A stretch of 39,982 nucleotides of DNA from Pseudomonadota bacterium (lineage in GTDB: Bacteria > Desulfobacterota > Desulfobulbia > Desulfobulbales > SURF-16): the NCBI GenBank assembly GCA_018897105.1, contig JAHILF010000105.1, positions 1 to 39,982 on the forward strand. Direction: 5' to 3'. Shown here one piece after another: positions 8,055-19,462 of this stretch. The position numbers were made by a program, and so were the translations under genes. The stretch's first letter is position 1; each line of letters opens with the position of its first letter. The notes beneath the pieces were generated by a model. That model ran no database searches. It saw nothing but the letters and a program-made list of their open reading frames with translations, and was not told the DNA's origin.

Positions 8055-11000
8055 ATGAGCAATATTGTCAAAATCAGCAAACCTTGTCTCGGCGCAACAT
8101 TACCCCGCGAAGGCCTCTTTCTTCAACTTGATAAAGCCAGAAAACTCCCCGTGACGTTCATCACCGGCCCTGCAGGTTGCGGAAAGACGTCCGTTGTCGC
8201 AAGTTATCTGGAGTCACGGCAGCTTCCATCTGTGTGGTATAAGGTGGACTCAGGTGATGACAATCTCAGCTCATTTTTCCACGACCTGAGCCGGGCGCTG
8301 GGGAATTTTGCCGAGGAAGCCGGCAGAATGCTTGCGGAACTGGCAGACAGATCTGCCAAGGGTATTCAGAAATCCAGCAGGCAGTTTTTCAATAACCTGG
8401 CCGGTAGCATCAAGCCGCCGTTTGTCCTGGTTCTTGATGATTACCAGGAAATATCCCCGGGTGCCCCTTTGCATCGAGCGCTTCTGGCCGGTTTGTCGAG
8501 AATACCCGAAGGGCTCTCGGTGATCATTATCAGCCGTAACGGTCCGCCCACCAAATTTTCAAGGTTGCGCGTCAACCGGCAGATGGCTCTTCTGGGCTGG
8601 GAGCAGTTGCGTCTGAGCGAGAGCGAGTGCCGGAAGATCTGTGAATTGCACGGCTTCAACACGTCGGATATGGAGCACTTTCCGGATGTCTTTGCCCAGA
8701 TTGACGGTTGGGCGGCTGGTCTGCAGCTGGTGATGAACGGCTGCCTGGCAAATAACGATATTACTTTGCGCTTTTATATCTCCAGTCAGGAAGATATTTT
8801 CGAGTATTTTGCCGGAGAGGTCTATGATGAACTGGCGGATAACATGAAAGATTTTCTCCTCAAAACGTCCTTTCTGAGCAGTATTCATCCCGACCAGGCC
8901 GCCCGGCTTACCGGTTTCCCGCAGGTCAGCAGCCTGTTGTCATTTCTGTGCCGTTCCAACAAGTTTACCAAGAGGGTGGAAAAGGATCAACCGCTCTATC
9001 AGTATCATCCGCTTTTCCGTCGCTTCCTTCAGGACCGGGCAACCATGCAGTTTTCCGCGCAGCAGAAGAAGGTTCTGCTGCAGAAGGTAGCCAGCCTGAT
9101 GCTGGAAGCGGGTCAGGAGGATCAGGCCTCTTTCCTGCTCAGGCAGGCATCTGACTGGGAAGGTCTCGCCTGGTTGATTCTGCAGAAGGCAAGATCTCTG
9201 ATAGAGCAAGGGCGATGCCCGGTTCTCTCTAAATGGCTGCAGGCCCTTCCCGGCCATATGATTGAAAATGATCCCCGCCTGCTTTACTGGATGGGCATGG
9301 CTGAAAAGGATTCGGATCCTCTGGCTGCCCGGCATTTTTTCCAGCGGGCTTTTGTCATTTTCCGCGATGCGGATGGGGGACGGACAGATACCATGCTGGC
9401 CTGGGCAGGCATCATGGAATGCCTTTTGGCCAGCCTGGATGACTCTGCTTCTCTTGACCGTTATCTGGCAATACTTGAGGAAATTATGCCTGATCCGCAT
9501 CGACTTCCTCCCGGAGAAGCAGCCGATCGGGTGACGGCAGGCATGTATGTGGCGCTGGTTATTCGGAATCCCCGGCATGAGAATTTTTCTGTCTGGGAAG
9601 AACGCGGGCTGCAGCTGGCCCAATCAACCAATGATCTGGCGGTCAAGGCTCAGATCCTGGTGCATGCGGCTATTTACCGCGTTTACACGGGAAAGTGTGA
9701 TGAGGCGGAGGGGGTACTTGATATACTGCGGCAGACAGCCTGTTCTATGCCGTCAGATCACGCCTCCCGGATCAAGATAATAGCCGCGGAGATATTTCTG
9801 GCAAACGCCCGCGGTGAATTCAATCAGGCCCTGAAACTGCTCAACGACGGATTGGCCCTAGCTGATCTCTCGGGTAAACATTTAATGGATTTCGAGCTGC
9901 TGTGCGACGGTGCCAGGGCTGCTCTTTTCAAAGGTGACACAAAGTTTGCAGCAGAACTGCTCACCCGCATGGCTGCCATTCCGCAGAGCAAATATCCGAC
10001 CTGCCAGTTCTGTTATCATTTTCTGCATGCTGCTCTGGCCCTGCAGGAGGGGAAGCTGGAAAATGCGGCATCGGCAGCCACTCTGGCCATGGAACTGGCG
10101 GATTCCGCCGTGGTCTGCTATGCAAAAACAGCCTGTATCCTTCTCCGGGCCGCGATCGCCTGCGTCCATGGCGACCGGGAACTGGCCTGGCAGTTTCTGC
10201 AGCAGGGGAAAGAAGCTTCGCTGCAAGGTGATTTCTGTCAGCTGGAATTAGAGGGCAGTCTGCTGGAGGCGTATTTTCATTTTATCGACAGTGATGCACC
10301 GGCCGGATTCAATACACTGCGACAGGCCATGGCTCTGGGAAGCGGACAGCATGGCCTGGTGCCATTCATGCTGCAACGGACGGTACTGGCCGAACTCTGC
10401 GCCAAGGCCATTGTAGAGAATATCCAGACTGACTATGCCCAGAAAATTGTGCAGCGCTGCCGGCTGCAAATCCCGCAGTCGCCTCAGGAGGTGGAGGAAT
10501 GGCCCTGGATGTTCCGGGTCTATACCCTGGGTCGCTTTGGCCTGGCAAAGTACGGCAAAAAGCTGCCCTATGCCTCCAAGAAAAAGACCAAGCCCCTGGC
10601 TTTTCTCAAAGTTCTCCTGGCCTTAGGCGGCCGCAAGGTCAGCGAATTGAACATCATGGATGCCCTGTGGCAGGAGGCAGACGGCGAAAAGGCGCGGCGT
10701 TCCTTTGACACCACCCTGTTTCGTCTCCGCACTCTGCTGGGCGCCCATGAAGCCATCCTTCTACAGAAGGGCAAGGTGACCATTGATCCGAATTGCTGCT
10801 GGGTGGATGCCTGGGCCTTTGAGCGTCTGCTCAGCCGTGCCGAGGCACTCTTGAAAAAAAATGGGAATAGTACCGCCCAGGCAACTGTCCTGGCCCGCAA
10901 GGCATTCCGTCTTTACCATGGTCCCTTTCTGGCCCAGGATAATGACGAGCACTGGACAATTCCCATGCGCGAGCGGCTGGAGAGCAGGTTTGAGCGGGGC

Positions 11001-11291
11001 ATTGAGCTGTTTGGCAAACAACTGGAGGAGGCCGGCAAGTGGCAGGAGGCAGCCGGTCTGTACCAACAGGCCATGGAGAAAAGTCCGCTCTCCGAAGTTT
11101 TCTATCAGCGGCTCATGATCTGCCTGCAGAAGCAGAACCGCATAACCGAGGCGCTGAAGGTGTACAGCAACTGCTGCCAGGTGCTGCGCGCCGTGCTCGA
11201 TGCAGAACCCTCATCCGCGACAATAAAATTGCACCACTCCCTGCGGGCTGGGGTTGATAAAAAACTGCCCTCACCTCAGCCCCCTGCCTGA
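8055..11291 (+). CDS. Large SARP/BTAD-type ATP-dependent transcriptional regulator
   Basis: A 1078-residue cytoplasmic regulator. The N-terminus is a STAND/MalT-like NTPase with Walker A GPAGCGKTS (about 38-46) and Walker B VLVLDDYQE (about 124-132), followed by long helical TPR-like repeats (about 330-800). From about residue 817 there is a winged-helix DNA-binding domain starting VYTLGRFGLA, with an RRSFDTTLFRLR recognition region (about 880-893). It is followed by a bacterial transcriptional activation domain (about 915-1065) with the typical LYHGPFL and WTIPMRERLE segments. There is no LuxR-type helix-turn-helix. Proteins of this build bind nucleotide and an inducer, oligomerise and activate nearby promoters. 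It sits directly upstream of the secreted-protein island, and the 11-bp-spaced repeats between it and the next gene are its likely targets. The inducer is unknown. Confidence 0.88.
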   Translation: MSNIVKISKPCLGATLPREGLFLQLDKARKLPVTFITGPAGCGKTSVVASYLESRQLPSVWYKVDSGDDNLSSFFHDLSRALGNFAEEAGRMLAELADRSAKGIQKSSRQFFNNLAGSIKPPFVLVLDDYQEISPGAPLHRALLAGLSRIPEGLSVIIISRNGPPTKFSRLRVNRQMALLGWEQLRLSESECRKICELHGFNTSDMEHFPDVFAQIDGWAAGLQLVMNGCLANNDITLRFYISSQEDIFEYFAGEVYDELADNMKDFLLKTSFLSSIHPDQAARLTGFPQVSSLLSFLCRSNKFTKRVEKDQPLYQYHPLFRRFLQDRATMQFSAQQKKVLLQKVASLMLEAGQEDQASFLLRQASDWEGLAWLILQKARSLIEQGRCPVLSKWLQALPGHMIENDPRLLYWMGMAEKDSDPLAARHFFQRAFVIFRDADGGRTDTMLAWAGIMECLLASLDDSASLDRYLAILEEIMPDPHRLPPGEAADRVTAGMYVALVIRNPRHENFSVWEERGLQLAQSTNDLAVKAQILVHAAIYRVYTGKCDEAEGVLDILRQTACSMPSDHASRIKIIAAEIFLANARGEFNQALKLLNDGLALADLSGKHLMDFELLCDGARAALFKGDTKFAAELLTRMAAIPQSKYPTCQFCYHFLHAALALQEGKLENAASAATLAMELADSAVVCYAKTACILLRAAIACVHGDRELAWQFLQQGKEASLQGDFCQLELEGSLLEAYFHFIDSDAPAGFNTLRQAMALGSGQHGLVPFMLQRTVLAELCAKAIVENIQTDYAQKIVQRCRLQIPQSPQEVEEWPWMFRVYTLGRFGLAKYGKKLPYASKKKTKPLAFLKVLLALGGRKVSELNIMDALWQEADGEKARRSFDTTLFRLRTLLGAHEAILLQKGKVTIDPNCCWVDAWAFERLLSRAEALLKKNGNSTAQATVLARKAFRLYHGPFLAQDNDEHWTIPMRERLESRFERGIELFGKQLEEAGKWQEAAGLYQQAMEKSPLSEVFYQRLMICLQKQNRITEALKVYSNCCQVLRAVLDAEPSSATIKLHHSLRAGVDKKLPSPQPPA

Positions 11292-11800: not shown

Positions 11801-12487
11801 ATGAAAAAAGTAAGTCTAGCAATGCTCATTGTCGCAATGCTTTTCGCATTCAGCACAGCCGCCAAGGCTTCAACGGTGCTCACCTTTGACATAGATTTCT
11901 ATGGGGGGGATACGTCTTTGGCCAAAAGCGTGCTGGATACTGGAACGACCATCGACTTAAAAGTAGGCGACACCGTGATGGTGGATTTATGGTTTAATAT
12001 CTTGGATGTTGATGAGCAGGGACAAATTATTATTCCTGACCTAGGGCTCTGGAAGGCGGGTTGGGACGTACAGTTTCCTGATGCAAATCTTGATGCTTCC
12101 AATCTTGCTTTATATGAAGCATGGGCGGTTTATCCGGATGACCCGCAGGGTATAAGCTCAGGCCATGTAAGATTCCGCGGTCAAACGATGAATGAATGGG
12201 CTTTCACTGGTCTGAGAGCGGGGGAGGATCTTCTGTTTTTCGGCACCTTTGAGCTTACTGCTACTCAGGCGAGCCTTATGAATGAAATTTGGTTTTACGA
12301 CTATAGTCTAGACCCGAATAGACCAGATTGGGCACTTGCAATAATCGATGGGGGTACGATTATTGACGATCTGGTTATTCCCACTCATCTTGCATCCGTC
12401 AACGTTGTCCCAATCCCCGGTGCCGTATGGTTGCTCGGTTCAGGGTTGGCAGGTCTTGTTGCCTTGCGGCGCAGGATGAAAAACTGA
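11801..12487 (+). CDS. PEP-CTERM exported protein with cohesin-like beta domain
   Basis: A 228-residue protein. The start at 11801 is chosen over upstream in-frame starts because AAGGAGG (11789-11795) is well placed and a good signal peptide (MKKVSLAM to AKAS, about residues 1-24) follows. The C-terminus is a PEP-CTERM sorting signal: a VPIPGAVW motif, one hydrophobic helix and a basic RRRMKN tail. Such proteins are recognised by an exosortase, cut and usually placed at the surface or in the matrix; no exosortase gene lies in this window. The middle is all-beta in pattern. LKVGDTVMVDLWF, then WKAGWDVQFPDANLD, then LLFFGTFELTA resemble in order the strands that open, follow and close cohesin domains. 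Cohesin likeness is my inference. The three following genes carry dockerin-like loops, which makes a receptor role attractive. Confidence 0.85.
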   Translation: MKKVSLAMLIVAMLFAFSTAAKASTVLTFDIDFYGGDTSLAKSVLDTGTTIDLKVGDTVMVDLWFNILDVDEQGQIIIPDLGLWKAGWDVQFPDANLDASNLALYEAWAVYPDDPQGISSGHVRFRGQTMNEWAFTGLRAGEDLLFFGTFELTATQASLMNEIWFYDYSLDPNRPDWALAIIDGGTIIDDLVIPTHLASVNVVPIPGAVWLLGSGLAGLVALRRRMKN

Positions 12488-12765
12488 TGGGTTTCTGCTG
12501 ATTTTTTTTGTAACCACGGGGCATCCGGCAGGAGGTCCTCTGGTTACAGGCAGATGATAAAATTGCGGGAAGGGACTTCAGGTATCGTTTCATGATGGTA
12601 CCACAGTCTGTCTTCGTCATGAAGAAATGACCTCGCTGCCTTAAATGTCTTTTCATATTTGGTCTGTTGAAAAGGCGCAGCACGGTACGGAACTTATCTG
12701 CTGCCACCGTGAATTCGGCGTTCATTGCTGTGTCTTTCCTTATCAATCATCAATATGACCCAGGG
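12488..12765 (+). other. Intergenic region upstream of the FG-GAP protein gene
   Basis: About 280 bases with no gene. It holds an 8-bp inverted repeat, TGTAACCA (12509-12516) with TGGTTACA (12541-12548), preceded by a T8 run, and an imperfect GC-richer inverted repeat around 12675-12713. I see no CWGTAAG repeats here and no recognised riboswitch. AAGGAGG at 12766-12772 is the ribosome site of the next gene. Confidence 0.4.
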
Positions 12766-12778
12766 AAGGAGGATAACC

Positions 12779-15700
12779 ATGCAAAAAATAATCAGTATTC
12801 TCTTGGCAGCTGTACTGTTGACAGCGATGTCACTGGTAACGGTGCAATTGTCTTTTGCACAGGTCGGTTCGGGTGCCCTGAAATTTTGCAGCGAATTTGC
12901 CTATTCCCTGGAAGAGGATTTTGTCACCCAGGGTCCGACACCACCAGACGGTAATCGCATTATCTCGGACGGTGATCTGCTGGGTAAAAATTGTGCTGTC
13001 TGCGCCCGCAATGCCGATCTGTTACAGAAATATGATATTGCAGCGGATCTTGGCCTTGACGCAGTTGATGTCGTTGACGTGGAACTCTACCTGGTTGCCT
13101 TTTCAACGGAACTCGACAGCCCCTATGGCCAGTTCACGGCCGGCGACCTGCTGGTGACCAATGGGGCAGTCATCCCGAACATCGCCCTGCTGGACAAATT
13201 CAAGACCCTGAGGGCTGACTACGGTCTTGACGCCCTGCAGTTGGTCGGTTCACCTGACCGAGTAATATCCTTTCTGAAGTATGCCTCCACCATATCCCGA
13301 CAGGAATGGCTCAACAACCCGGAAAGGCTGGCCGCCATGCTGGAGGAGTTCGATATTGATATCCTCTTTTCCATTGAGGGAATCGGCCCTGATCCGGCGG
13401 CTCCGGCTTTTCTTGACGGGGACCTCCTTTCCGCTCGATTCGGTATTGTCGTCGAAAAAAACAGTTCCTTGTTGCCGCTGTCAGTACCGGCAGGCATTCC
13501 GGACAGGGGTGTTGATTTCGGTCTTGATGCTGCCGCCCTGGTCCAGGCGGCCACAGTTTCTCCCATATACTTTTCCACGGAGATTCTTTTTCATGGCAAA
13601 ACTTCCTTCACCGATGGGGACATGCTGGAGGCGGGAGACGGAGTGATTATCCCCAATGGCGATCTGGTCATCTGTTTTGAGCCGAAGGCCGGCTTTATCG
13701 GGCTTGACGCCCTTTTTGCCAGGGTGGAACAGGAAACCATGAATGCGCTTCTCTCCCAACTGGCGTCAGCCCCACGGGCAGCCGTGGCAAAAACAAGCGG
13801 GTCGGAAAAGACAGCCGCTGTAACGGCAACCGACGCGGAAGACATTGATACAGTGGGGTTGCAACTGGAAGCCTGCCGCGAGATCGCCTTTTCCACTGAA
13901 GAGGATTTCGTGACCCAGGGACCTGAGCCGCCCGACGGCAATCCGATTATCTCTGACGGAGACCTGATCGGCCGGGACTGCACGCTCTGCGCCAGGAATC
14001 AGGATCTTCTCAGGCCCTTTGACGTGAAATCAGATCTCGGGCTTGACGCGGTAGACGTCATTGAAAGCGAAAAGGAACTGGTGGCCTTTTCCACAGAGCT
14101 GGATAGTCCCAACACCGGCCAGTTTACCGCTGGTGATCTTCTTGCCACCAACGGGGCGATTATTCCCAACAGCGCCCTTCTTTATCTTTTTAAAATTCAA
14201 TACGATATCGGCCTGGATGGTCTGCAGTTTGTCGGGAAAACTGAGATGATAGCGCGGTTCCTTGAAGCGGCAAGAAGTCTGGGCCGGGATTTCTTCATCA
14301 ATAACCCTGATGAGCTTGCCGTCATGCTCCGTAAATACGAACTGGACATCTGGTTTTCCACTGAGGGTACCGGCCCCATGCCCATTTCGCCCGTTTTTCT
14401 TGATGGAGATCTGCTCTCGGCCGCAACCGGCGTCATTGTCGAGGCAAACTCCACCCTGCTGCCGGCCGATGTACCTGCCGGGATTCCTGATCGGGGCGTT
14501 GACTTCGGTCTCGACGCAGTGACCGGCCGCCGCGATGGAGCCAGGGAACTGCTCAACTTCTCCACCGAAATCCTTTTTGAGGAGACGCCGGCATTTACCG
14601 ATGGCGACATCCTGAAACGGGGCAACGGTGTGGTCAGCACTAATCGGGAACTGATCAGCTGTTTTGAGCCTGAGGCGGATTTTGTGGGACTTGATGCCCT
14701 TTCCAGCAGCTGCTGGCCGGAACTCGAGTGGACCTGGAACAGTACCACGGTGGAACCTGAATATGATCAGGTCATGATGGCGCCTGTGGCTGCCGACGTA
14801 AACAGCGACAGGGTGCCGGATATCATTTTCAGCACATTCAGTAAGGCACTGGGGTGGCAGGGAGGAGGAATTCTTCGTGCCATAAGCGGCGCCGGCGGCA
14901 GTGAAATTTTCAGTGTTACCAGCCCGAATTACCGGGTCAATGCCGGTGCCGAACCAGCCGTGGCTGATATTGATAAAGACGGCAAGCCGGAGATTGTTGT
15001 CAGCAAAGATTCCGGTCACATTATCTGCTTTGAAAACGATGGAAGTTTCAAATGGATCAGCAGCACAGTAATCGGTAGAGTCGCCGTTGCCGTTGCCGAC
15101 CTTGATGAAGACGGCACACCTGAGATCATTGCCGGCAGAACTGTCTTCAACAATGACGGTACCGTACGCTGGACCGGCGTAGCCGGCTCAAGTTATGCCT
15201 CAGTAGTGGCGGATCTCGACCTGAACGGCCATCCCGAGGTGATAACCGGCGGCACCGCCTACAGATTCGATGGCGCCATCTACTGGAACACCTCACCTGC
15301 CGGCAATCCGGCCATTGGAAATTTCGACGATGATCCCTACCCGGAGATCGTTATTGTCGGGAGTGATATGGTCACCATGAAGGAGCATGATGGAACGGTG
15401 AAGTGGGGACCGGTGAGCATGCCGCCGGGAGGAGGGAACGGCCCGCCGGTTGTTGCTGATATTGACGGAGACGGGCAGCTTGAGATCGGTGTCGGCGGCT
15501 ATGATTATTATGTCGCCTTTGAAACAAATGGCACAGTGAAATGGATGACCGAAATAAGAGATCACAGCTCCAGGGCGGCGAGTTCTACCGCCTTTGATTT
15601 CAATCAGGATGGACGCTTCGAGATTGTTTACAGCGACGAAGAAAAGCTTCGCATTTTCAAGGGCGACAATGGTGCTGTTCTTTTTGAAGCACCGGGACCG

Positions 15701-16168
15701 TCCGGCACCCTTATGGAACAGCCGATCATCCTCGATGTTGACAATGACAGGCATGCTGAAATCGTCGTGGCGGTCAATAACTACGCCTTCCCCGGCAACA
15801 CCGGTATTGAGGTGTACGGCAATGACAGCTGCTGGCCGGACGCCAGAAAGATCTGGAACCAGCATACCTATCACATCACCAACATCAATCCGAACGCCTC
15901 TGTGCCGCAGTTTGAGCCGGACAACTGGAAACTCTATAACAACTACCGGACACAGGCCCTGTCGGAACCCTGCGAATGCGACCTCAATATTGACGGAAGC
16001 TGCAACATGGCGGACTGGCTGCTGTTCGGCCAAGACTGGGGCCGGACCGATTGTCTCGATCCCGGGGTGGTCTGTGAGTGTGATTTGAACACGGACGGAA
16101 GCTGCAACATGGCGGATTGGTTGCTGTTCGGTCAGGACTGGGGCAGGATGGACTGTCCGGTGCCATAA
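12779..16168 (+). CDS. Exported FG-GAP protein with duplicated module and two dockerin-like loops
   Basis: A 1129-residue secreted protein. The start at 12779 is set by AAGGAGG and a signal peptide ending near SFAQ (about residue 24). It has four parts. First is a module of about 285 residues (about 33-318) that is repeated at about 361-645 with shared EEDFVTQGP, DGD, FSTELDSP and DRGVDFGLDA motifs. I do not recognise this module as a named family. A propeller-like region of eight FG-GAP/VCBS repeats (about 660-1020) follows, each with a DxDxDGxxE-type calcium site. Last are two 28-residue dockerin-like loops at the extreme C-terminus. FG-GAP propellers occur in adhesins and matrix proteins. 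No enzyme motif was seen. It is probably co-transcribed with the next gene, 50 bases downstream. Confidence 0.85.
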   Translation: MQKIISILLAAVLLTAMSLVTVQLSFAQVGSGALKFCSEFAYSLEEDFVTQGPTPPDGNRIISDGDLLGKNCAVCARNADLLQKYDIAADLGLDAVDVVDVELYLVAFSTELDSPYGQFTAGDLLVTNGAVIPNIALLDKFKTLRADYGLDALQLVGSPDRVISFLKYASTISRQEWLNNPERLAAMLEEFDIDILFSIEGIGPDPAAPAFLDGDLLSARFGIVVEKNSSLLPLSVPAGIPDRGVDFGLDAAALVQAATVSPIYFSTEILFHGKTSFTDGDMLEAGDGVIIPNGDLVICFEPKAGFIGLDALFARVEQETMNALLSQLASAPRAAVAKTSGSEKTAAVTATDAEDIDTVGLQLEACREIAFSTEEDFVTQGPEPPDGNPIISDGDLIGRDCTLCARNQDLLRPFDVKSDLGLDAVDVIESEKELVAFSTELDSPNTGQFTAGDLLATNGAIIPNSALLYLFKIQYDIGLDGLQFVGKTEMIARFLEAARSLGRDFFINNPDELAVMLRKYELDIWFSTEGTGPMPISPVFLDGDLLSAATGVIVEANSTLLPADVPAGIPDRGVDFGLDAVTGRRDGARELLNFSTEILFEETPAFTDGDILKRGNGVVSTNRELISCFEPEADFVGLDALSSSCWPELEWTWNSTTVEPEYDQVMMAPVAADVNSDRVPDIIFSTFSKALGWQGGGILRAISGAGGSEIFSVTSPNYRVNAGAEPAVADIDKDGKPEIVVSKDSGHIICFENDGSFKWISSTVIGRVAVAVADLDEDGTPEIIAGRTVFNNDGTVRWTGVAGSSYASVVADLDLNGHPEVITGGTAYRFDGAIYWNTSPAGNPAIGNFDDDPYPEIVIVGSDMVTMKEHDGTVKWGPVSMPPGGGNGPPVVADIDGDGQLEIGVGGYDYYVAFETNGTVKWMTEIRDHSSRAASSTAFDFNQDGRFEIVYSDEEKLRIFKGDNGAVLFEAPGPSGTLMEQPIILDVDNDRHAEIVVAVNNYAFPGNTGIEVYGNDSCWPDARKIWNQHTYHITNINPNASVPQFEPDNWKLYNNYRTQALSEPCECDLNIDGSCNMADWLLFGQDWGRTDCLDPGVVCECDLNTDGSCNMADWLLFGQDWGRMDCPVP
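12875..14713 (+). repeat. Tandem internal duplication of a ~285-residue module
   Basis: Copy A (12875-13733) and copy B (13859-14713) encode the same order of motifs with clear but diverged similarity, joined by a linker of about 42 residues rich in Ala, Thr and Ser. Each copy has several four-fold internal echoes of a short unit: F-S-T/L-E-x-(D/I/L), a DGD-(L/I/M)-L turn, a second NxxLL segment, and GLDA. Copy A may therefore itself consist of four shorter repeats of about 70 residues. The duplication is seen directly; the fold is unknown. Confidence 0.75.
15971..16054 (+). repeat. Dockerin-like loop 1 of the FG-GAP protein
   Basis: 28 codons. The first half has the form CxCDxNxDGxCNMxDW, with acidic or Asn ligands at EF-hand loop positions 1, 3, 5, 9 and 12. 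The second half is LLFGxDWGRxDC. Cysteines bracket the unit and one lies inside the loop. Confidence 0.75.
16073..16156 (+). repeat. Dockerin-like loop 2 of the FG-GAP protein
   Basis: A near-identical second copy, separated from the first by six codons. It differs mostly at synonymous sites (for example GGC/GGT and CTG/TTG), which suggests either old duplication under protein-level constraint or exchange between copies. Confidence 0.75.
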
Positions 16169-16218
16169 ACGAAGAGGATTTGCTCGGCAAGTGGATAACC
16201 ACTTAGAAAGGGGGGAAA

Positions 16219-17493
16219 ATGATGGGGAGAAAGAAGGGGTGGTGGGGAATTCTTATTGCTTTATTCTTATTGGTTAATACAGGGATGGTATTTGCTGAAG
16301 AAGAAGTCATCTATGAGGAGGGCTTCGAGACGGGCATGGGCGGCTGGTACCCTGACAACGGGGTATGGGATTTGTGTCTACATACCCCTCCTAATCCACC
16401 TTGGGGAGGAGGATTGTTGTATGTGGCGACGGTTTGTGGGGGGAATTATCCTACTGTAACGGACAGTCGGCTTATCAGCCCTTCCATAATACTTCCTGTT
16501 ATTACAGGCGACGAGGAGTTGCATCTTCGCTTTATGCAATGGTTTTCCTATGAGGGAGGCGATTATGGTTATGTTCAGATCTCAGTTTACGATGAGGCGT
16601 CGGGAAGCTGGTCTCCTTTCAGCTCCATAAACGGTGCAACAGGCAACACTTCTTCTGTAGTGTGGTCTCCGCAAAGCATAGATATTACTGCTTACGCAGG
16701 GAAGAAAGTCAGGATAGGCTTTTGGCATTACACAGACAACGACAGTGGTATCGGTGCTGGGTGGTTCATTGATGATCTTGAAATAATTAAGAAGGTTCCA
16801 GAGCTAACCTGGGATTTTGAATGCGGTTGGGATGACTGGTATACGGGAAATGGGGTCTGGGAGGTCGGGGTACCCACCTATGGGCCATCCGCTTGCTATA
16901 GCGGAGAACAGTGTGCAGGGACAATTCTGGGCGGAAAATATCCGACTGTAACCGATAGCCGTCTTGTCAGTCCTTCCTTTTATCTGTCTATAGACGTGGC
17001 ATCTACCCTTTGCTTCAGGCATTGGTTTTCCTACGAGGGGGGCGATTACGGCTATGTGCATCTGTCGGTATTTGATGAATCCTCACAAAAATGGTCGGCG
17101 TGGCAGGATATAAGCGGCCCTGTCGGACCAGGACCATCAGCTGGTTGGACATTGAGATGTATAGATCTCTCAGCCCATACGGGCGAAAAGGTCAGGATAG
17201 CCTTTTCGCATCAAACGGATAATGACAGTGGTACCGGAGCAGGCTGGTATATCGATCATGTCAGGATCGCCGGCCTTCCTCATTTCTGTGACTGCGATCT
17301 CAACCAGGACACCCTGTGCGACATGCAGGACTGGCTGGTGTTCGGCAGTGATTGGGGGAGAACAGATTGTAACGAGGTTGATGTTCAGCCGTGCGAATGC
17401 GATCACAACCATGACGGTAGCTGCAATATGCTTGACTGGTTGCGCTTCGGTGAGAACTGGGGGCAGAGTGATTGCCTGATATGTGAGCAGTAG
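16219..17493 (+). CDS. Exported double jelly-roll protein with two dockerin-like loops
   Basis: A 424-residue secreted protein with a signal peptide (hydrophobic residues about 9-25, cleavage near VFAEE) and a GGGGGG ribosome site before the ATGATG. Two beta-sandwich modules (about 32-192 and 195-350) share YPTVTDSRL, WFSYEGGDYGYV and TDNDSG motifs followed by GAGW(F/Y)ID. They resemble the MAM-like or choice-of-anchor type jelly-rolls of secreted peptidases and adhesins, which bind proteins or glycans. No protease motif is present. Two 28-residue dockerin-like loops end the protein. Its coding sequence looks richer in A+T and in codons such as ATA, TGT and AGG than the flanking FG-GAP gene, which may mean separate acquisition. 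It lies 50 bases behind the FG-GAP gene. Confidence 0.85.
   Translation: MMGRKKGWWGILIALFLLVNTGMVFAEEEVIYEEGFETGMGGWYPDNGVWDLCLHTPPNPPWGGGLLYVATVCGGNYPTVTDSRLISPSIILPVITGDEELHLRFMQWFSYEGGDYGYVQISVYDEASGSWSPFSSINGATGNTSSVVWSPQSIDITAYAGKKVRIGFWHYTDNDSGIGAGWFIDDLEIIKKVPELTWDFECGWDDWYTGNGVWEVGVPTYGPSACYSGEQCAGTILGGKYPTVTDSRLVSPSFYLSIDVASTLCFRHWFSYEGGDYGYVHLSVFDESSQKWSAWQDISGPVGPGPSAGWTLRCIDLSAHTGEKVRIAFSHQTDNDSGTGAGWYIDHVRIAGLPHFCDCDLNQDTLCDMQDWLVFGSDWGRTDCNEVDVQPCECDHNHDGSCNMLDWLRFGENWGQSDCLICEQ
17287..17370 (+). repeat. Dockerin-like loop 1 of the jelly-roll protein
   Basis: 28 codons starting CDCDLNQD. Loop ligand positions 1, 3, 5, 9 and 12 are D, N, D, D, D, and the unit closes with FGSDWGRTDC. 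It is the most diverged copy, with TL in place of the usual G(S/A). Confidence 0.72.
17392..17475 (+). repeat. Dockerin-like loop 2 of the jelly-roll protein
   Basis: 28 codons starting CECDHNHD. Loop ligands are D, N, D, N, D, and the unit closes with FGENWGQSDC. It is separated from loop 1 by seven codons. Confidence 0.72.
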
Positions 17494-17515
17494 CAGGCAG
17501 CTAATTGTCTGGCGG

Positions 17516-17543
17516 CCGTATCTTTTTTGACAGAAAGGTACGG
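17516..17543 (+). terminator. Possible terminator after the jelly-roll gene
   Basis: A 10-bp stem with one G-T pair (17516-17525 with 17534-17543) and an 8-base loop, 23 bases after the stop codon. The following sequence is only moderately T-rich, so termination is plausible but not certain. Confidence 0.4.
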
Positions 17544-17613
17544 CATTCTGTTGGGTTATATGCTTGAAGATGGAGGACAAATGCAACTCAAATTTCTACT
17601 GCATATCTGAATT

Positions 17614-17715
17614 ATCAGTAAAGCCAAACCTATCGTGAGGTGGGGACGGAAAGCCACGGGTTTTTTTCTGTCTGCATTGGCACTTTATTAAATAAAACAG
17701 CCGGGCTGCCGCGTC
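17614..17715 (+). promoter_or_regulatory. GEMM-I (cyclic di-GMP class I) riboswitch aptamer
   Basis: The core order is characteristic: AAAGCCAAACC (17620-17630), then a 6-bp hairpin capped by a GTGA GNRA tetraloop (about 17629-17644). GGGGACGGAAAGCCACGGG (17642-17660) follows, then a variable P3 arm (GTTTTTTT with AATAAAAC), and last CAGCCGGGCTGCCG (17699-17712). Deltaproteobacterial GEMM-I RNAs share these blocks. The base that aligns with ligand-contacting G20 of the Vibrio Vc2 aptamer is G (17623). That favours c-di-GMP over the 3',3'-cGAMP-sensing variants, which carry A there. It is the leader of the propeller protein gene. Boundaries are approximate. Confidence 0.85.
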
Positions 17716-17760
17716 TGACTTCGAAAAGTCGGAAATACGGCGTAGCCCGGCTGTTTTATT
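17691..17760 (+). terminator. Riboswitch expression-platform terminator
   Basis: A perfect 17-bp stem (17691-17707 with 17744-17760, arm AATAAAACAGCCGGGCT) encloses an inner hairpin, GACTT-CGAA-AAGTC (17717-17730), and is followed by T-rich sequence. The 5' arm reuses the 3' strand of aptamer arm P3 and the conserved CAGCCGGGCTG. Aptamer and terminator are therefore mutually exclusive, which predicts an ON switch: ligand binding prevents termination. Confidence 0.85.
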
Positions 17761-17848
17761 TTGATCAGTGAAAGGCATTCGGAAAAGTGTCGACGTTGTT
17801 AATAATTGACGGGTGGAGCACTGAAAATTTTTGAAAAGGAGGAGGGGT

Positions 17849-19462
17849 ATGAAACGATTATTCAATGCGGTTTTATGGCAAGGATTAATATGCCGAGTGG
17901 TTGCTTTATTTTTTATTATCATGCTGTGGTGCTGTGTCAACTCTGCCCTGGCGGTGACCATCCCGGTGATGGTGGATTATGCCGACACCGGTTACTTCGG
18001 TGGGCAAACTCCTCAGGGCATTACCCATATTCCCTCGACATGTCTTTTTGCCATTGTCGATGACGAGGATGACATGGTGTATATCATCGATCGGCAAGGG
18101 ATTGTCCAAGATCAATTTTCAGTAAGTTCCTATTCCAACTATGCCAGCGGCATTGCCTATATCTCTGAGGGGGAGAACGCTGGAAATTTTGCCATCATCG
18201 ATGATTCCGCGGATAAGGTTTTTGTTGTTCCCACATCGGGTGGCAGCCCGGTTCATGAATGCTCCACTACAACCTTTGGCTCTACCAATCCGCAAGGGAT
18301 CACCTATATTGCCGATGGCCTCTATGCCGGAGATCTCGCCATTGTCGATATTACTACGGATTATGTATATTTTGTTGATTTTGATTGCAATTTGCTAGGA
18401 TCATTTCCCGTCGGCCCAGACGGCTGCACCACCCCCTACGGCATTACCTTCATGCCCGGCTCAGAATACTTGGCCATTATTGATGGTACTCTGAACGACG
18501 TGTTTCTTTTCGACCAGTCCGGCAATCTGCAGGATCAATTCGATGTCGGCTTTGTTTCATCACCGTACTCCTACGGCATTGCCTATGATGCTTGTAATGA
18601 AGACCTGGCGGTTGCCAGCAACGGCCAGGATGAGGTTTTCTTCTTTAATATTACAGGAGAGGTGGTAAAGACGATTAATCTTTTTGATCTTGGCTGTTCC
18701 AGTCCAACTGGCATCGCCTATGACCGGAGCCAAAGCATTTATGCCATTGTCGACAATACAGGGGCAGAGGTATTTTTCGTTGATCCTGAGTCGGAGGCAT
18801 TGATCACGCAATGTGACATTTCCGCTTTTTCCACCAGTGCCAAAGGCATCACCTATGGACCCGGTGTCGGGCAGTTCAGCATTGTCGACGACTATAAAGA
18901 TAAAATATTTACCATTGACGCAAGCTGTAATCTGCTGGCGCAATTTGACACCGCAACCTTTGGCATCAGCGCCACTTACCCCAGCGGCATTGCCTATGTG
19001 CCGAGCAGTGGATATATGGCGGTAGTGGATTACATAAAAGATGCTGCCGTGATGGTAGACCTTTCCCGTCCCGGAAGAATAGTAGACCAATTCAGCTTGG
19101 ATGTTTTCGGTTCCAGTTATGCCAGTGGTATTTCCCATATCTCTGTAAACGGCAATTTTGCCGTCACTGACAGTTCGTTGGGCGAAGTGTTTGTCGTAAG
19201 TCCCAAGGGAGTCCTGAAAGCAAGATTTGACACAACACCCTTTTTCCCAACACCGCAGGGCATTGCCTTGGACATCGACACCAACACCTTTGTACTCGTT
19301 GATAACACCAATGATGAGTTGAAGATACTCGACCTGCCTTGCCTGTTATTCCCGCCTCCGCCTTCTTGCGAATGCGACCTCAACAACGACGGCGCCTGTA
19401 ATATGGATGACTGGCTGCTATTCGGTACAGACTGGGGACGGAAAGATTGTCCGCTGCAATAG
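17849..19462 (+). CDS. Exported ten-repeat beta-propeller protein with one dockerin-like loop
   Basis: A 537-residue secreted protein. The ATG at 17849 is preferred to an in-frame TTG at 17831 because AAGGAGGAGG (17836-17845) would lie inside the longer version. The signal peptide is long (hydrophobic about 21-40). The body has about ten repeats of roughly 45 residues, each with a G-I-(A/T)-(Y/H) turn, an (A/S)-(I/V)-(V/I)-D strand and a V-(F/Y)-x-(V/I/F)-(D/N) strand. These resemble SdiA-regulated/NHL-type propellers. A PPPP linker leads to a single 28-residue dockerin-like loop. No catalytic site was recognised; a scaffold or carbohydrate- or protein-binding role is likely. Expression is predicted to depend on the GEMM-I riboswitch that ends 88 bases upstream. 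Confidence 0.87.
   Translation: MKRLFNAVLWQGLICRVVALFFIIMLWCCVNSALAVTIPVMVDYADTGYFGGQTPQGITHIPSTCLFAIVDDEDDMVYIIDRQGIVQDQFSVSSYSNYASGIAYISEGENAGNFAIIDDSADKVFVVPTSGGSPVHECSTTTFGSTNPQGITYIADGLYAGDLAIVDITTDYVYFVDFDCNLLGSFPVGPDGCTTPYGITFMPGSEYLAIIDGTLNDVFLFDQSGNLQDQFDVGFVSSPYSYGIAYDACNEDLAVASNGQDEVFFFNITGEVVKTINLFDLGCSSPTGIAYDRSQSIYAIVDNTGAEVFFVDPESEALITQCDISAFSTSAKGITYGPGVGQFSIVDDYKDKIFTIDASCNLLAQFDTATFGISATYPSGIAYVPSSGYMAVVDYIKDAAVMVDLSRPGRIVDQFSLDVFGSSYASGISHISVNGNFAVTDSSLGEVFVVSPKGVLKARFDTTPFFPTPQGIALDIDTNTFVLVDNTNDELKILDLPCLLFPPPPSCECDLNNDGACNMDDWLLFGTDWGRKDCPLQ
19367..19450 (+). repeat. Dockerin-like loop of the propeller protein
   Basis: 28 codons starting CECDLNND. Loop ligands are D, N, D, N, D at positions 1, 3, 5, 9 and 12, and the unit closes with FGTDWGRKDC four codons before the stop. 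This protein has one copy where its two neighbours have two. Confidence 0.75.

Follow-up and report, generated by a model that had tools for sequence, protein, structure and literature searches.

Why should three consecutive genes for exported proteins with unrelated bodies share one small ending rich in cysteine and tryptophan? We encountered this question at a locus on contig JAHILF010000105.1 (GCA_018897105.1; Bacteria; Desulfobacterota; Desulfobulbia; Desulfobulbales; SURF-16), of which we analyzed a stretch of 39,982 nucleotides, here called the window. The features are collected in Table 1, where the PEP-CTERM protein is named for its proposed role as a receptor and the three proteins encoded after it are the candidate cargo. 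Pfam and NCBIfam models agree with the bodies proposed in an earlier, sequence-only reading of this DNA: FG-GAP repeats and choice-of-anchor J/MAM jelly-rolls in the first two cargo proteins and, in the third, SdiA-regulated and NHL matches, which are of propeller type. The FG-GAP protein probably starts at 12779 rather than 12725, judging by its signal peptide, and the propeller protein probably at 17849 rather than 17831, judging by its signal peptide and its ortholog in genus-mate G090. The large regulator gene has a counterpart in G090 that is 92% identical and in the same position. Because promoter-like sites match shuffles (8 versus 8.3) and terminator-like sites exceed them just slightly (13 versus 9.0, SD 2.6), we make no operon claim.

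Table 1. Features of the locus, in window coordinates
Feature	Position	Strand	Basis
MalT/SARP-type regulator, large; context gene	8055..11291	+	ATPase domain N-terminal, BTAD C-terminal (Pfam/NCBIfam)
PEP-CTERM protein, diverged cohesin (supported), proposed receptor	11801..12487	+	NCBIfam tail and profile homology
Cohesin-like domain of receptor (mature part)	11870..12391	+	A2 versus G294 PEP-CTERM cohesin
VPLPA-CTERM/PEP-CTERM sorting tail of receptor, VPIPGAVWLLGSGLAGLVALRRR	12407..12481	+	TIGR03370 above cut-off
FG-GAP protein, exported, C-terminal dockerin pair	12779..16168	+	Start inferred from signal peptide
Dockerin unit 1, FG-GAP protein, CECDLNIDGSCNMADWLLFGQDWGRTDC	15971..16054	+	Pattern and profile match
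Dockerin unit 2, FG-GAP protein	16073..16156	+	Pattern and profile match; pair modelled, pLDDT 89
Exported protein, two choice-of-anchor J/MAM jelly-rolls and dockerin pair	16219..17493	+	Pfam/NCBIfam
Dockerin unit 3, jelly-roll protein	17287..17370	+	Pattern and profile match
Dockerin unit 4, jelly-roll protein	17392..17475	+	Pattern and profile match
Propeller-like exported protein, single dockerin unit	17849..19462	+	Start from G090 ortholog
Dockerin unit 5 (single), propeller protein	19367..19450	+	Pattern and profile match

Terminal units and the dockerin fold

Five in-frame, 28-residue Cys/Trp units terminate the three exported proteins directly 3' of the PEP-CTERM gene, two each in the FG-GAP and jelly-roll proteins and one in the propeller protein. 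The back-translated unit pattern matches the window exactly five times and 100 shuffles not once, so the five shared loops described from the letters alone are real. Sixteen of the 28 positions are invariant across all copies (C1, C3, D4, N6, D8, C11, M13, D15, W16, L17, F19, G20, W23, G24, D27, and C28). The ligands at positions 1, 3, 5, 9, and 12 of an EF-hand loop are D, N, D, N/D, and D in every unit, which upholds the proposed fit to a dockerin-type loop. In a search of the whole genome, strong scores were confined to the window's five units (E 1e-20 to 4e-18). Ordinary dockerin-like units of other genes are among the matches ranked after them (E 4e-4 to 0.7). A short form of the pattern also matches once on contig C165, inside an 81-residue open frame.

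The units had been called unlike classical dockerins, and this holds for part of their character. Pairing at a spacing of 33 to 35 residues is usual in the window's genome and the relatives examined. The outer cysteines, too, occur in ordinary units of the window's genome, G016, G050, and G294, in a search whose pattern itself required this pair; many cassette dockerins lack it. By sequence, then, what sets the window's units apart is the inner cysteines together with the Trp residues, and dockerins of this Cys/Trp type are a rare variant, seen in three genomes. Any disulfides would, by our guess, join C3 to C11 in the inner pair and C1 to C28 in the outer one.

Is the unit a dockerin in fold? 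A dockerin profile (A3) searched against the PDB matched the dockerin 2y3n_B with an E value of 8.7e-7, and the next best match was troponin C at 0.097. A structure model, covering the pair of the FG-GAP protein only, reached a pLDDT of 89, and its two loop-helix units are packed as in solved dockerins. The model matched 13 PDB chains at E ≤ 10, of which 12 are dockerins; ranks 1 to 11 all come from cohesin-dockerin complexes, and rank 12 is a double dockerin. The best match was again 2y3n_B (1.5 Å root mean square deviation, TM 0.78 on the target, E 4.2e-3). With Pfam PF00404, the FG-GAP protein scored 22.1 bits, under the gathering score of 22.9, and the jelly-roll and propeller proteins had no match at E ≤ 1; we therefore do not file the window units under PF00404, which the ordinary units of G016 and G050 pass. 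The modelled pair supports the predicted dockerin identity of the paired unit, as the sequence-only reading had suggested.

The PEP-CTERM protein and its relatives

The gene directly upstream of the three cargo genes had been read as encoding a PEP-CTERM protein, and its tail indeed scores 29.0 bits with NCBIfam TIGR03370 (VPLPA-CTERM; cut-off 25.35), while Pfam PF07589 (PEP-CTERM) gives 14.4 bits, below its cut-off of 20.7. The features of an exosortase substrate are present: the C-terminal motif, a transmembrane stretch, and a basic end. Neither PF09721 nor TIGR04152 detects an exosortase in the assembly that contains the window (G000, 177 contigs); exosortase matches are present in G090. 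TIGR04152 describes the exosortase XrtD, the partner of VPLPA-CTERM (TIGR03370). End-to-end matches to TIGR04152 lie over the cut-off in G016, G101, G009, G072, and G294 and just under it in G090 and G257.

Whether this protein is also a cohesin, as its predicted beta pattern had hinted, depends on profile comparisons, since the receptor has no match to Pfam PF00963 (cohesin) at E ≤ 1 and is not filed there for want of a direct match. We compared alignments: A2 holds the window receptor and its G090 ortholog, A6 adds a relative from G257, and A5 holds 18 PEP-CTERM cohesins that all adjoin dockerin genes and that match PDB cohesins, to E 1.2e-11. A2 matched a PEP-CTERM protein of G294 over 150 columns (95.1%, E 3.1e-8), and that protein itself passes the Pfam cohesin cut-off (30.7 versus 24.1 bits). 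A6 matched the 18 cohesins of A5 at 95.7% (E 8.9e-9) with a score of 57.2, whereas 100 column shuffles reached at most 17.1. The signal falls with fewer rows: the two-row A2 scored 29.4 against A5 (32%), just over the best of 100 shuffles, 24.3, and the window receptor alone scored 22.6 (5.9%). PDB searches by the receptor and by A6 returned no cohesin, the structure model from the two-row alignment, with a pLDDT of 39, is too poor to show a fold, and the receptor alone found only itself and its G090 ortholog among the 257 genomes of the class. These profile matches support the cohesin-like reading, with the PEP-CTERM protein as a putative diverged cohesin that Pfam misses.

In G090, the gene order is kept for the receptor and two of its three cargo proteins. 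The other genome with Cys/Trp dockerins, G257, carries the related cohesin and the dockerin genes found on different contigs. It also has a 68-amino-acid ORF that consists of a signal peptide, one unit, and little more. A search of 395 genomes of the phylum with the receptor profile A6, which holds no dockerin information, reached G294, a member of another class, whose PEP-CTERM cohesin lies directly 5' of five dockerin ORFs (268 to 910 amino acids) and one 63-amino-acid dockerin ORF. The idea that the Cys/Trp dockerin is tied to one private cohesin subtype is weakened, as G294 pairs a related cohesin with ordinary dockerins.

Recurrence of the gene pair

Across the 257 genomes of the window's class, a PEP-CTERM ORF lies within 1 kb of 25 of 95 dockerin ORFs, on the same strand in all 25 cases. 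This is a lower bound because several regions stop at contig ends, as do some around the 70 dockerin ORFs without such a neighbor inside 1 kb. The 95 derive from 103 match rows, seven of which were second matches in an ORF already counted and one of which (G019, whose match contains a stop) was left unplaced; the window locus and G090 are outside this set because Pfam's model misses both. By a generous count, chance would give 5.05 neighbors (Poisson 2e-10), an expectation that takes loose first-look candidates as the PEP-CTERM number per genome, rounded genome sizes, and an assumed 40 per 4 Mb for 17 unlisted genomes; cassettes from species of one genus are non-independent.

The adjacent PEP-CTERM proteins also tend to be cohesins. 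The neighbor scores as cohesin for 21 of the 25 dockerin ORFs, compared with 1 of 57 non-adjacent PEP-CTERM proteins; scoring adjacent proteins by A5 is partly circular, with each member left out for itself. Seen from the PEP-CTERM side, 8 of 9 sites with a dockerin neighbor score as cohesin and none of 43 without (Fisher 1e-8; 4e-7 without the window and G090), in a sample of the first 53 by E value among the matches listed, of which row 48 had no ORF and 52 were usable. Free of the A5 circularity are the G294 match and a Pfam-based count: in 40 regions fetched from a longer list of Pfam cohesin matches (E ≤ 0.5), nine cohesin ORFs carry a PEP-CTERM tail, eight of these nine lie within 1 kb of a dockerin ORF on the same strand, and only two of the nine pass Pfam's cut-off. 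Over ten genomes, PF00963 had no match in the window's genome, and its two weak matches (G002 and G074) are PEP-CTERM proteins beside dockerin genes. Adjacency is not confined to PEP-CTERM cohesins, since a dockerin ORF also lies within 1 kb of 3 of 10 cohesins with other C-termini (L080, L108, and, less clearly, L088), and it is therefore not special to the PEP-CTERM kind. In all, five families of the class, and another class as well, have PEP-CTERM genes, mostly cohesin-like, next to dockerin genes. The distribution is thus associated with cohesin-like proteins, and the cohesin/dockerin reading stands.

How else could the locus be explained? The units could be dockerins whose partner is a cohesin encoded elsewhere, such as on an adaptor, with the neighboring PEP-CTERM cohesin serving different dockerins. 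Cohesins and dockerins can pair promiscuously, further dockerin-type units lie on other contigs of the window's genome, a dockerin ORF on contig C168 adjoins another PEP-CTERM gene, and G257 separates its cohesin from its dockerins. We nevertheless consider this unlikely, given that the receptor stays with two cargo genes in G090 and that the PEP-CTERM cohesins seen nearly always adjoin dockerin genes. Very unlikely, in our view, is that the units bind no cohesin and act as calcium-binding, disulfide-bonded end caps or as a C-terminal export or sorting signal; the complexes that fill the top 11 PDB ranks and the neighborhoods across families and classes argue against it, even if the propeller protein's lone unit, the unusual Cys/Trp pattern, and the 68-amino-acid ORF of G257 would suit it. 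It is hardly credible that the PEP-CTERM gene belongs to a large set of unrelated genes of its kind and stands beside dockerin genes by chance: a profile with the PEP-CTERM tail in it matches at 24 places in the genome and Pfam sees no cohesin in the receptor, but the neighbor counts, the homology to cohesins, and the synteny in G090 all speak against chance.

A proposed surface receptor and known systems

We favor, with a probability of roughly 0.77, the reading of the block as an exosortase-sorted, single-cohesin receptor with its dockerin cargo; the modules are known, and the cassette recurs. The first gene would encode a small exported protein carrying a single cohesin domain, and its PEP-CTERM tail would be processed by an exosortase, which would hand the protein to the cell surface or matrix. 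Genes 2 to 4 would give exported proteins with unrelated bodies, without a visible anchor of their own, and ending in dockerins. We infer that these dockerins would bind the receptor's cohesin in a calcium-dependent manner, with the propeller protein, through its one unit, supplying a half-site. The small module is probably made stiffer by its inner cysteines and its Trp residues. Sequence or model supports the fold of the dockerin, the homology to cohesins, the sorting tail, and the conserved clustering. Altogether, the surface complex first proposed for this locus is largely supported by the pair model, the cohesin homology, and the repeated neighborhood, with binding as the inferred step. 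The sequence-only reading knew of no description of the combination, which is not confined to this locus and recurs in relatives; we found no description of a recurrent cassette of PEP-CTERM cohesin and dockerin cargo in the open literature searched.

It is tempting to generalize. We would give even odds that PEP-CTERM cohesins serve the window's phylum generally as a non-covalent display system, in which exosortase fixes small receptors in the envelope or matrix, dockerins hang extracellular enzymes and multiheme cytochromes without their own anchors on them, and lineage-specific, partly disulfide-locked dockerins give private specificity. We know of no role for most PEP-CTERM proteins; one group of them would gain a concrete, testable job as receptors for dockerin-tagged proteins. 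Such receptors would explain how cells retain anchorless exported proteins (multiheme cytochromes, a multicopper oxidase, 5'-nucleotidases, a subtilase, and propellers), and they would extend cohesin-dockerin assembly to exosortase-based envelopes. Recurrence in related bacteria suggests a general Gram-negative means of surface protein display, and new cohesin-dockerin pairs, some with extra cysteines, could be used as molecular glue.

Cellulosomes are anchored through SLH domains or LPXTG, and the anchor here would be a PEP-CTERM tail. With cellulosome pairs (PDB 2y3n, 2b59, and 5g5d, titled type II) the window shares the dockerin fold of two EF-hand-loop units and two helices, the PEP-CTERM cohesins of its class match solved cohesins, and here too an exported anchor would hold exported cargo. 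In contrast, this block has one cohesin per receptor; neither a several-cohesin scaffoldin nor glycoside hydrolase cargo was found within it, its cargo being FG-GAP, jelly-roll, and propeller proteins rather than cellulases, and its units carry an extra Cys pair and Trp. With exosortase/PEP-CTERM sorting it shares the tail above the TIGR03370 cut-off; it differs in that what is sorted would act as a receptor to which other proteins bind and in that PF09721 and TIGR04152 detect no exosortase in the window's assembly.

Cohesin/dockerin complexes are reported in the syntrophic sulfate reducers Hot-Seep1, Seep-SRB1g, and Seep-SRB2, with adjacent and possibly active cohesin and dockerin genes in Hot-Seep1 and highly expressed ones in Seep-SRB2 (PMC10553843), and ANME archaea also have them (PMC9012536); a role in adhesion is proposed (PMC10553843, PMC9012536). 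The main text of PMC10553843 does not use the words "exosortase" or "PEP-CTERM," and the accounts of these systems in the relevant parts of both papers describe no single-cohesin PEP-CTERM receptor like that of the window. A receptor role for PEP-CTERM cohesins would suggest a mechanism for the cohesin/dockerin genes reported as adhesins in syntrophic sulfate reducers. The "Planctosome" of freshwater Planctomycetes, as presented in the relevant part of its report, is likewise a non-cellulosomal cohesin-dockerin surface complex and likewise a genomic prediction, but it is built from a lamin-tail-domain protein anchor, a dockerin-cohesin adaptor, and peptidase cargo (PMC6461901).

Proposed receptor and cargo gene block

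Four genes run in tandem on the + strand at 11801-19462, as called from ORFs with Pfam and NCBIfam annotation (see table). The first, a PEP-CTERM protein, is the proposed receptor, and the other three are its proposed cargo. The sequence-only reading had counted five copies of a 28-residue Cys/Trp unit ending three exported proteins, and that count stands, as 2 + 2 + 1. Signal peptides are visible by inspection at the N termini of all three cargo proteins, and 16 of the 28 unit positions are invariant across the five copies.

Just upstream of the block lies a large MalT/SARP-type regulator, 92% identical in the genus-mate G090, versus 68% for the receptor. It is a candidate regulator of the block, whose surface genes would be evolving faster. 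G090 keeps the regulator, receptor, jelly-roll and propeller genes; the FG-GAP gene is absent there.

Coordinates of the gene block and related features (L-numbers are fetched loci; unprefixed positions are in the window)
Feature	Location	Strand	Basis
MalT/SARP-type regulator	8055-11291		
PEP-CTERM protein (proposed receptor)	11801-12487	+	ORF, domain annotation
FG-GAP protein, two C-terminal units	12779-16168	+	ORF, domain annotation
Protein of two jelly-rolls, two C-terminal units	16219-17493	+	ORF, domain annotation
Propeller-like protein, one C-terminal unit	17849-19462	+	ORF, domain annotation
Second genus pair, G000 (window's genome), contig C168	L179:2851-4231		
Second genus pair, G090, contig C7	L235:1501-3024		
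Second genus pair, G016, contig C89	L122:4932-6295		
Multihaem cytochrome-like protein with dockerin	L038:6572-8587		12 CXXCH
Multihaem cytochrome-like protein with dockerin	L037:5854-8214		5 CXXCH
Multihaem cytochrome-like protein with dockerin	L173:5443-7695		4 CXXCH
Multihaem cytochrome-like protein with dockerin	L035:4552-6549		by eye
68-aa ORF with one Cys/Trp unit, G257	L030:169-372		

Cohesin and dockerin assignments

Profile homology identifies the receptor as a putative diverged cohesin, in agreement with the cohesin-like character first proposed for it. The receptor alone gave no Pfam cohesin match, no PDB match in a sequence search and no usable model of its own predicted structure (pLDDT 39, two-sequence alignment). 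A profile of the receptor and its G090 relative (A2; 72% identical over the mature parts) aligned over 150 columns with a PEP-CTERM protein of the genome G294 (95.1%, E 3.1e-8), which is itself over Pfam's cohesin cut-off. With a third relative from G257 (pairwise E 5e-7), the resulting profile A6 matched a profile of 18 PEP-CTERM cohesins adjoining dockerins (95.7%, E 8.9e-9, score 57; maximum over 100 column shuffles, 17.1), with the G257 member supplying much of the score (45.0 alone versus 22.6 for the window alone). The two-row A2 scored 29.4 against the same profile, with a shuffle maximum of 24.3. The 18 reference proteins recover cohesins from the PDB (best 3l8q, E 1.2e-11), and PF00963 matches 11 of the 24 PEP-CTERM proteins of set A4 at E<=1. 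Scored singly against the cohesin profile, the receptor reaches 22.7 and its G090 ortholog 35.6, both higher than 56 of the 57 PEP-CTERM proteins that have no dockerin neighbour, the 56 scoring at most 15.7; the remaining one, L073 (46.5), is a Pfam-positive cohesin close to a contig start.

The Cys/Trp unit is, by profile and structural model, a dockerin, which upholds its original reading as dockerin-type. Calcium-ligand residues occupy loop positions 1, 3, 5, 9 and 12, and a nine-sequence unit profile (A3) finds the PDB dockerin 2y3n_B at E 8.7e-7, the runner-up being troponin C at 0.097. Structure prediction for the unit pair of the FG-GAP protein gives two helices at pLDDT 89.4, within a spread of 53.6 to 89.4 over five models. 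None of its 13 Foldseek matches passes E 0.001; ranks 1-11 are chains of cohesin-dockerin complexes, led by 2y3n_B (E 4.2e-3, 1.5 A, TM 0.78 on target), and rank 12 is a double dockerin. Against the Pfam dockerin model, the FG-GAP protein falls just below cut-off (22.1 versus 22.9 bits), and the jelly-roll and propeller-like proteins give no match.

This Cys/Trp dockerin is a rare variant. In a whole-genome profile search of G000, only the window's five units scored strongly; ordinary dockerin-like units are present in other genes. Among 84,980 species, in a scan that possibly omits the window's own record, the strict pattern occurred only in JAKPPU (here G257) and JAHIVT (content as G090 contig C103). 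A five-unit profile at E<=1e-4 matched four of 193 genomes of the order (G000, G090, G016 and G050), and the units of the latter two are without the inner Cys (C3/C11). Ordinary units of G016 and G050 are mostly paired, with the outer Cys (C1/C28) present and the inner Cys absent, under a search pattern that demanded the outer Cys, which is also absent in many cassette dockerins of the class. In G257, a 68-aa ORF comprises approximately a signal peptide, one Cys/Trp unit and little else; it is perhaps a free secreted half-dockerin, acting as plug or competitor.

Recurrence of the pairing

Dockerins matched Pfam at E<=0.001 in 56 of 257 genomes of the class. A PEP-CTERM ORF lay within 1 kb of 25 of 95 placed dockerin ORFs, in 15 of 55 genomes, the 15 spanning five families and ten genera, versus 5.05 expected by a generous count (Poisson 2e-10). 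All 25 share its strand, and in eight the nearest PEP-CTERM ORF is upstream. At least one PEP-CTERM neighbour scored as a cohesin (above 17.2) in 21 of the 25; the other four are on G000 contig C168, in L153, in L154 (where the PEP-CTERM ORF, a 65-residue piece, was left out of scoring) and one of three in L119. Overall, 24 of 31 adjacent PEP-CTERM proteins scored as cohesins, versus 1 of 57 non-adjacent ones (88 scored). From the PEP-CTERM side, 52 usable sites among the matches listed comprised 9 with a dockerin neighbour and 43 without, with 8/9 versus 0/43 cohesin-scoring. This check of the distribution, run on genomes of the class, did not refute the proposed co-occurrence with PEP-CTERM cohesin-like proteins.

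A Pfam-based count, independent of our own cohesin profile, covered 40 regions around Pfam cohesin matches. Nine cohesin ORFs there have a PEP-CTERM tail (two over the Pfam cut-off), and in eight of these a dockerin ORF lies on the same strand within 1 kb, versus in three of ten cohesins with another C-terminus (L080, L108 and, weakly, L088). Those ten (298-351 aa; L076, L080, L082, L083, L085, L088, L090, L091, L092, L108) have a common NAPGGTGY-like end, less strict in L108, with a hydrophobic stretch after it; this may be a further kind of C-terminal signal, for sorting or anchoring.

The genus also conserves a second pair, in which a dockerin protein of roughly 250-260 aa is encoded next to a PEP-CTERM gene. 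The N-terminal half of this protein looks like a cohesin by eye, its Pfam match being dockerin only, and it is possibly an adaptor.

A6, which holds no dockerin information, was run on 395 phylum genomes drawn from a larger group. Beyond the window's genome it matched G294 (E 1.1e-9) and weakly G423 (0.0013), the latter in a 751-aa frame whose 3-kb locus gave no dockerin by profile search. In G294, a member of another class, the match is a PEP-CTERM cohesin. The next ORF opens 92 bp after it (likely start about 0.2 kb), and the same-strand run holds five dockerin-bearing ORFs of 268-910 aa and one of 63 aa. This locus, in a far-removed genome, reproduces the architecture seen in the window. 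In the examined parts of one 94.7-kb contig (L030-L032), G257 carries five dockerin-bearing ORFs; its related cohesin is on a separate contig, where no dockerin was found in 20 kb.

Proposed working and known systems

We propose, given the established role of PEP-CTERM tails, that an exosortase would trim the exported receptor at its tail and that the trimmed receptor would stay in the outer envelope or matrix. In G294 the TIGR04152 model finds a full-length exosortase at 572 bits, over the cut-off of 400. PF09721 matched in 12 of 18 genomes and TIGR04152 at E<=0.1 in 14 of 19, five over cut-off; searches with these two exosortase models found none in the G000, G074, G050, G176 or G013 assemblies. 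A PEP-CTERM-containing profile matches 24 places in G000, yet neither model finds an exosortase there, so we infer that the enzyme is likelier missing from the assembly or diverged than nonexistent.

Dockerins on the cargo would stand in for anchors. This is in keeping with the families of the cargo: the jelly-roll protein has an NCBIfam choice-of-anchor J domain and one G176 cargo protein is choice-of-anchor I, a family name that presumably implies various anchors on members elsewhere. A Pfam scan of 13 among the 25 dockerin ORFs beside PEP-CTERM genes found two with cytochrome c domains, one multicopper oxidase, two 5'-nucleotidases and one subtilase with kelch repeats, and 4 of the 25 have at least four CXXCH motifs. 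Dockerins on multihaem cytochrome-like proteins would attach electron-transfer proteins to the surface. The cassette likely serves to display extracellular enzymes, redox proteins and adhesins at the surface.

The suggestion that this combination had not been described before agrees with the 5.39 million open-access papers searched, where we found no description of the union of modules. 'PEP-CTERM' occurred there with neither 'dockerin' nor 'cohesin' (most subscription papers lie outside it), and 'exosortase' with 'dockerin' only in PMC5244752, in separate sections and separate table rows. The main text of PMC10553843 has neither 'exosortase' nor 'PEP-CTERM'. Cohesin-dockerin genes outside cellulosomes are already known: in syntrophic sulfate reducers, PMC10553843 describes such genes as conserved and expressed, as lying next to each other and as being exchanged; they are also reported in ANME archaea (PMC9012536 and PMC5244752), and a 'planctosome' is proposed in PMC6461901. 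The component modules are of known kinds, and the putative exosortase-sorted single-cohesin receptor beside dockerin cargo, with binding predicted, is a recurrent cassette.
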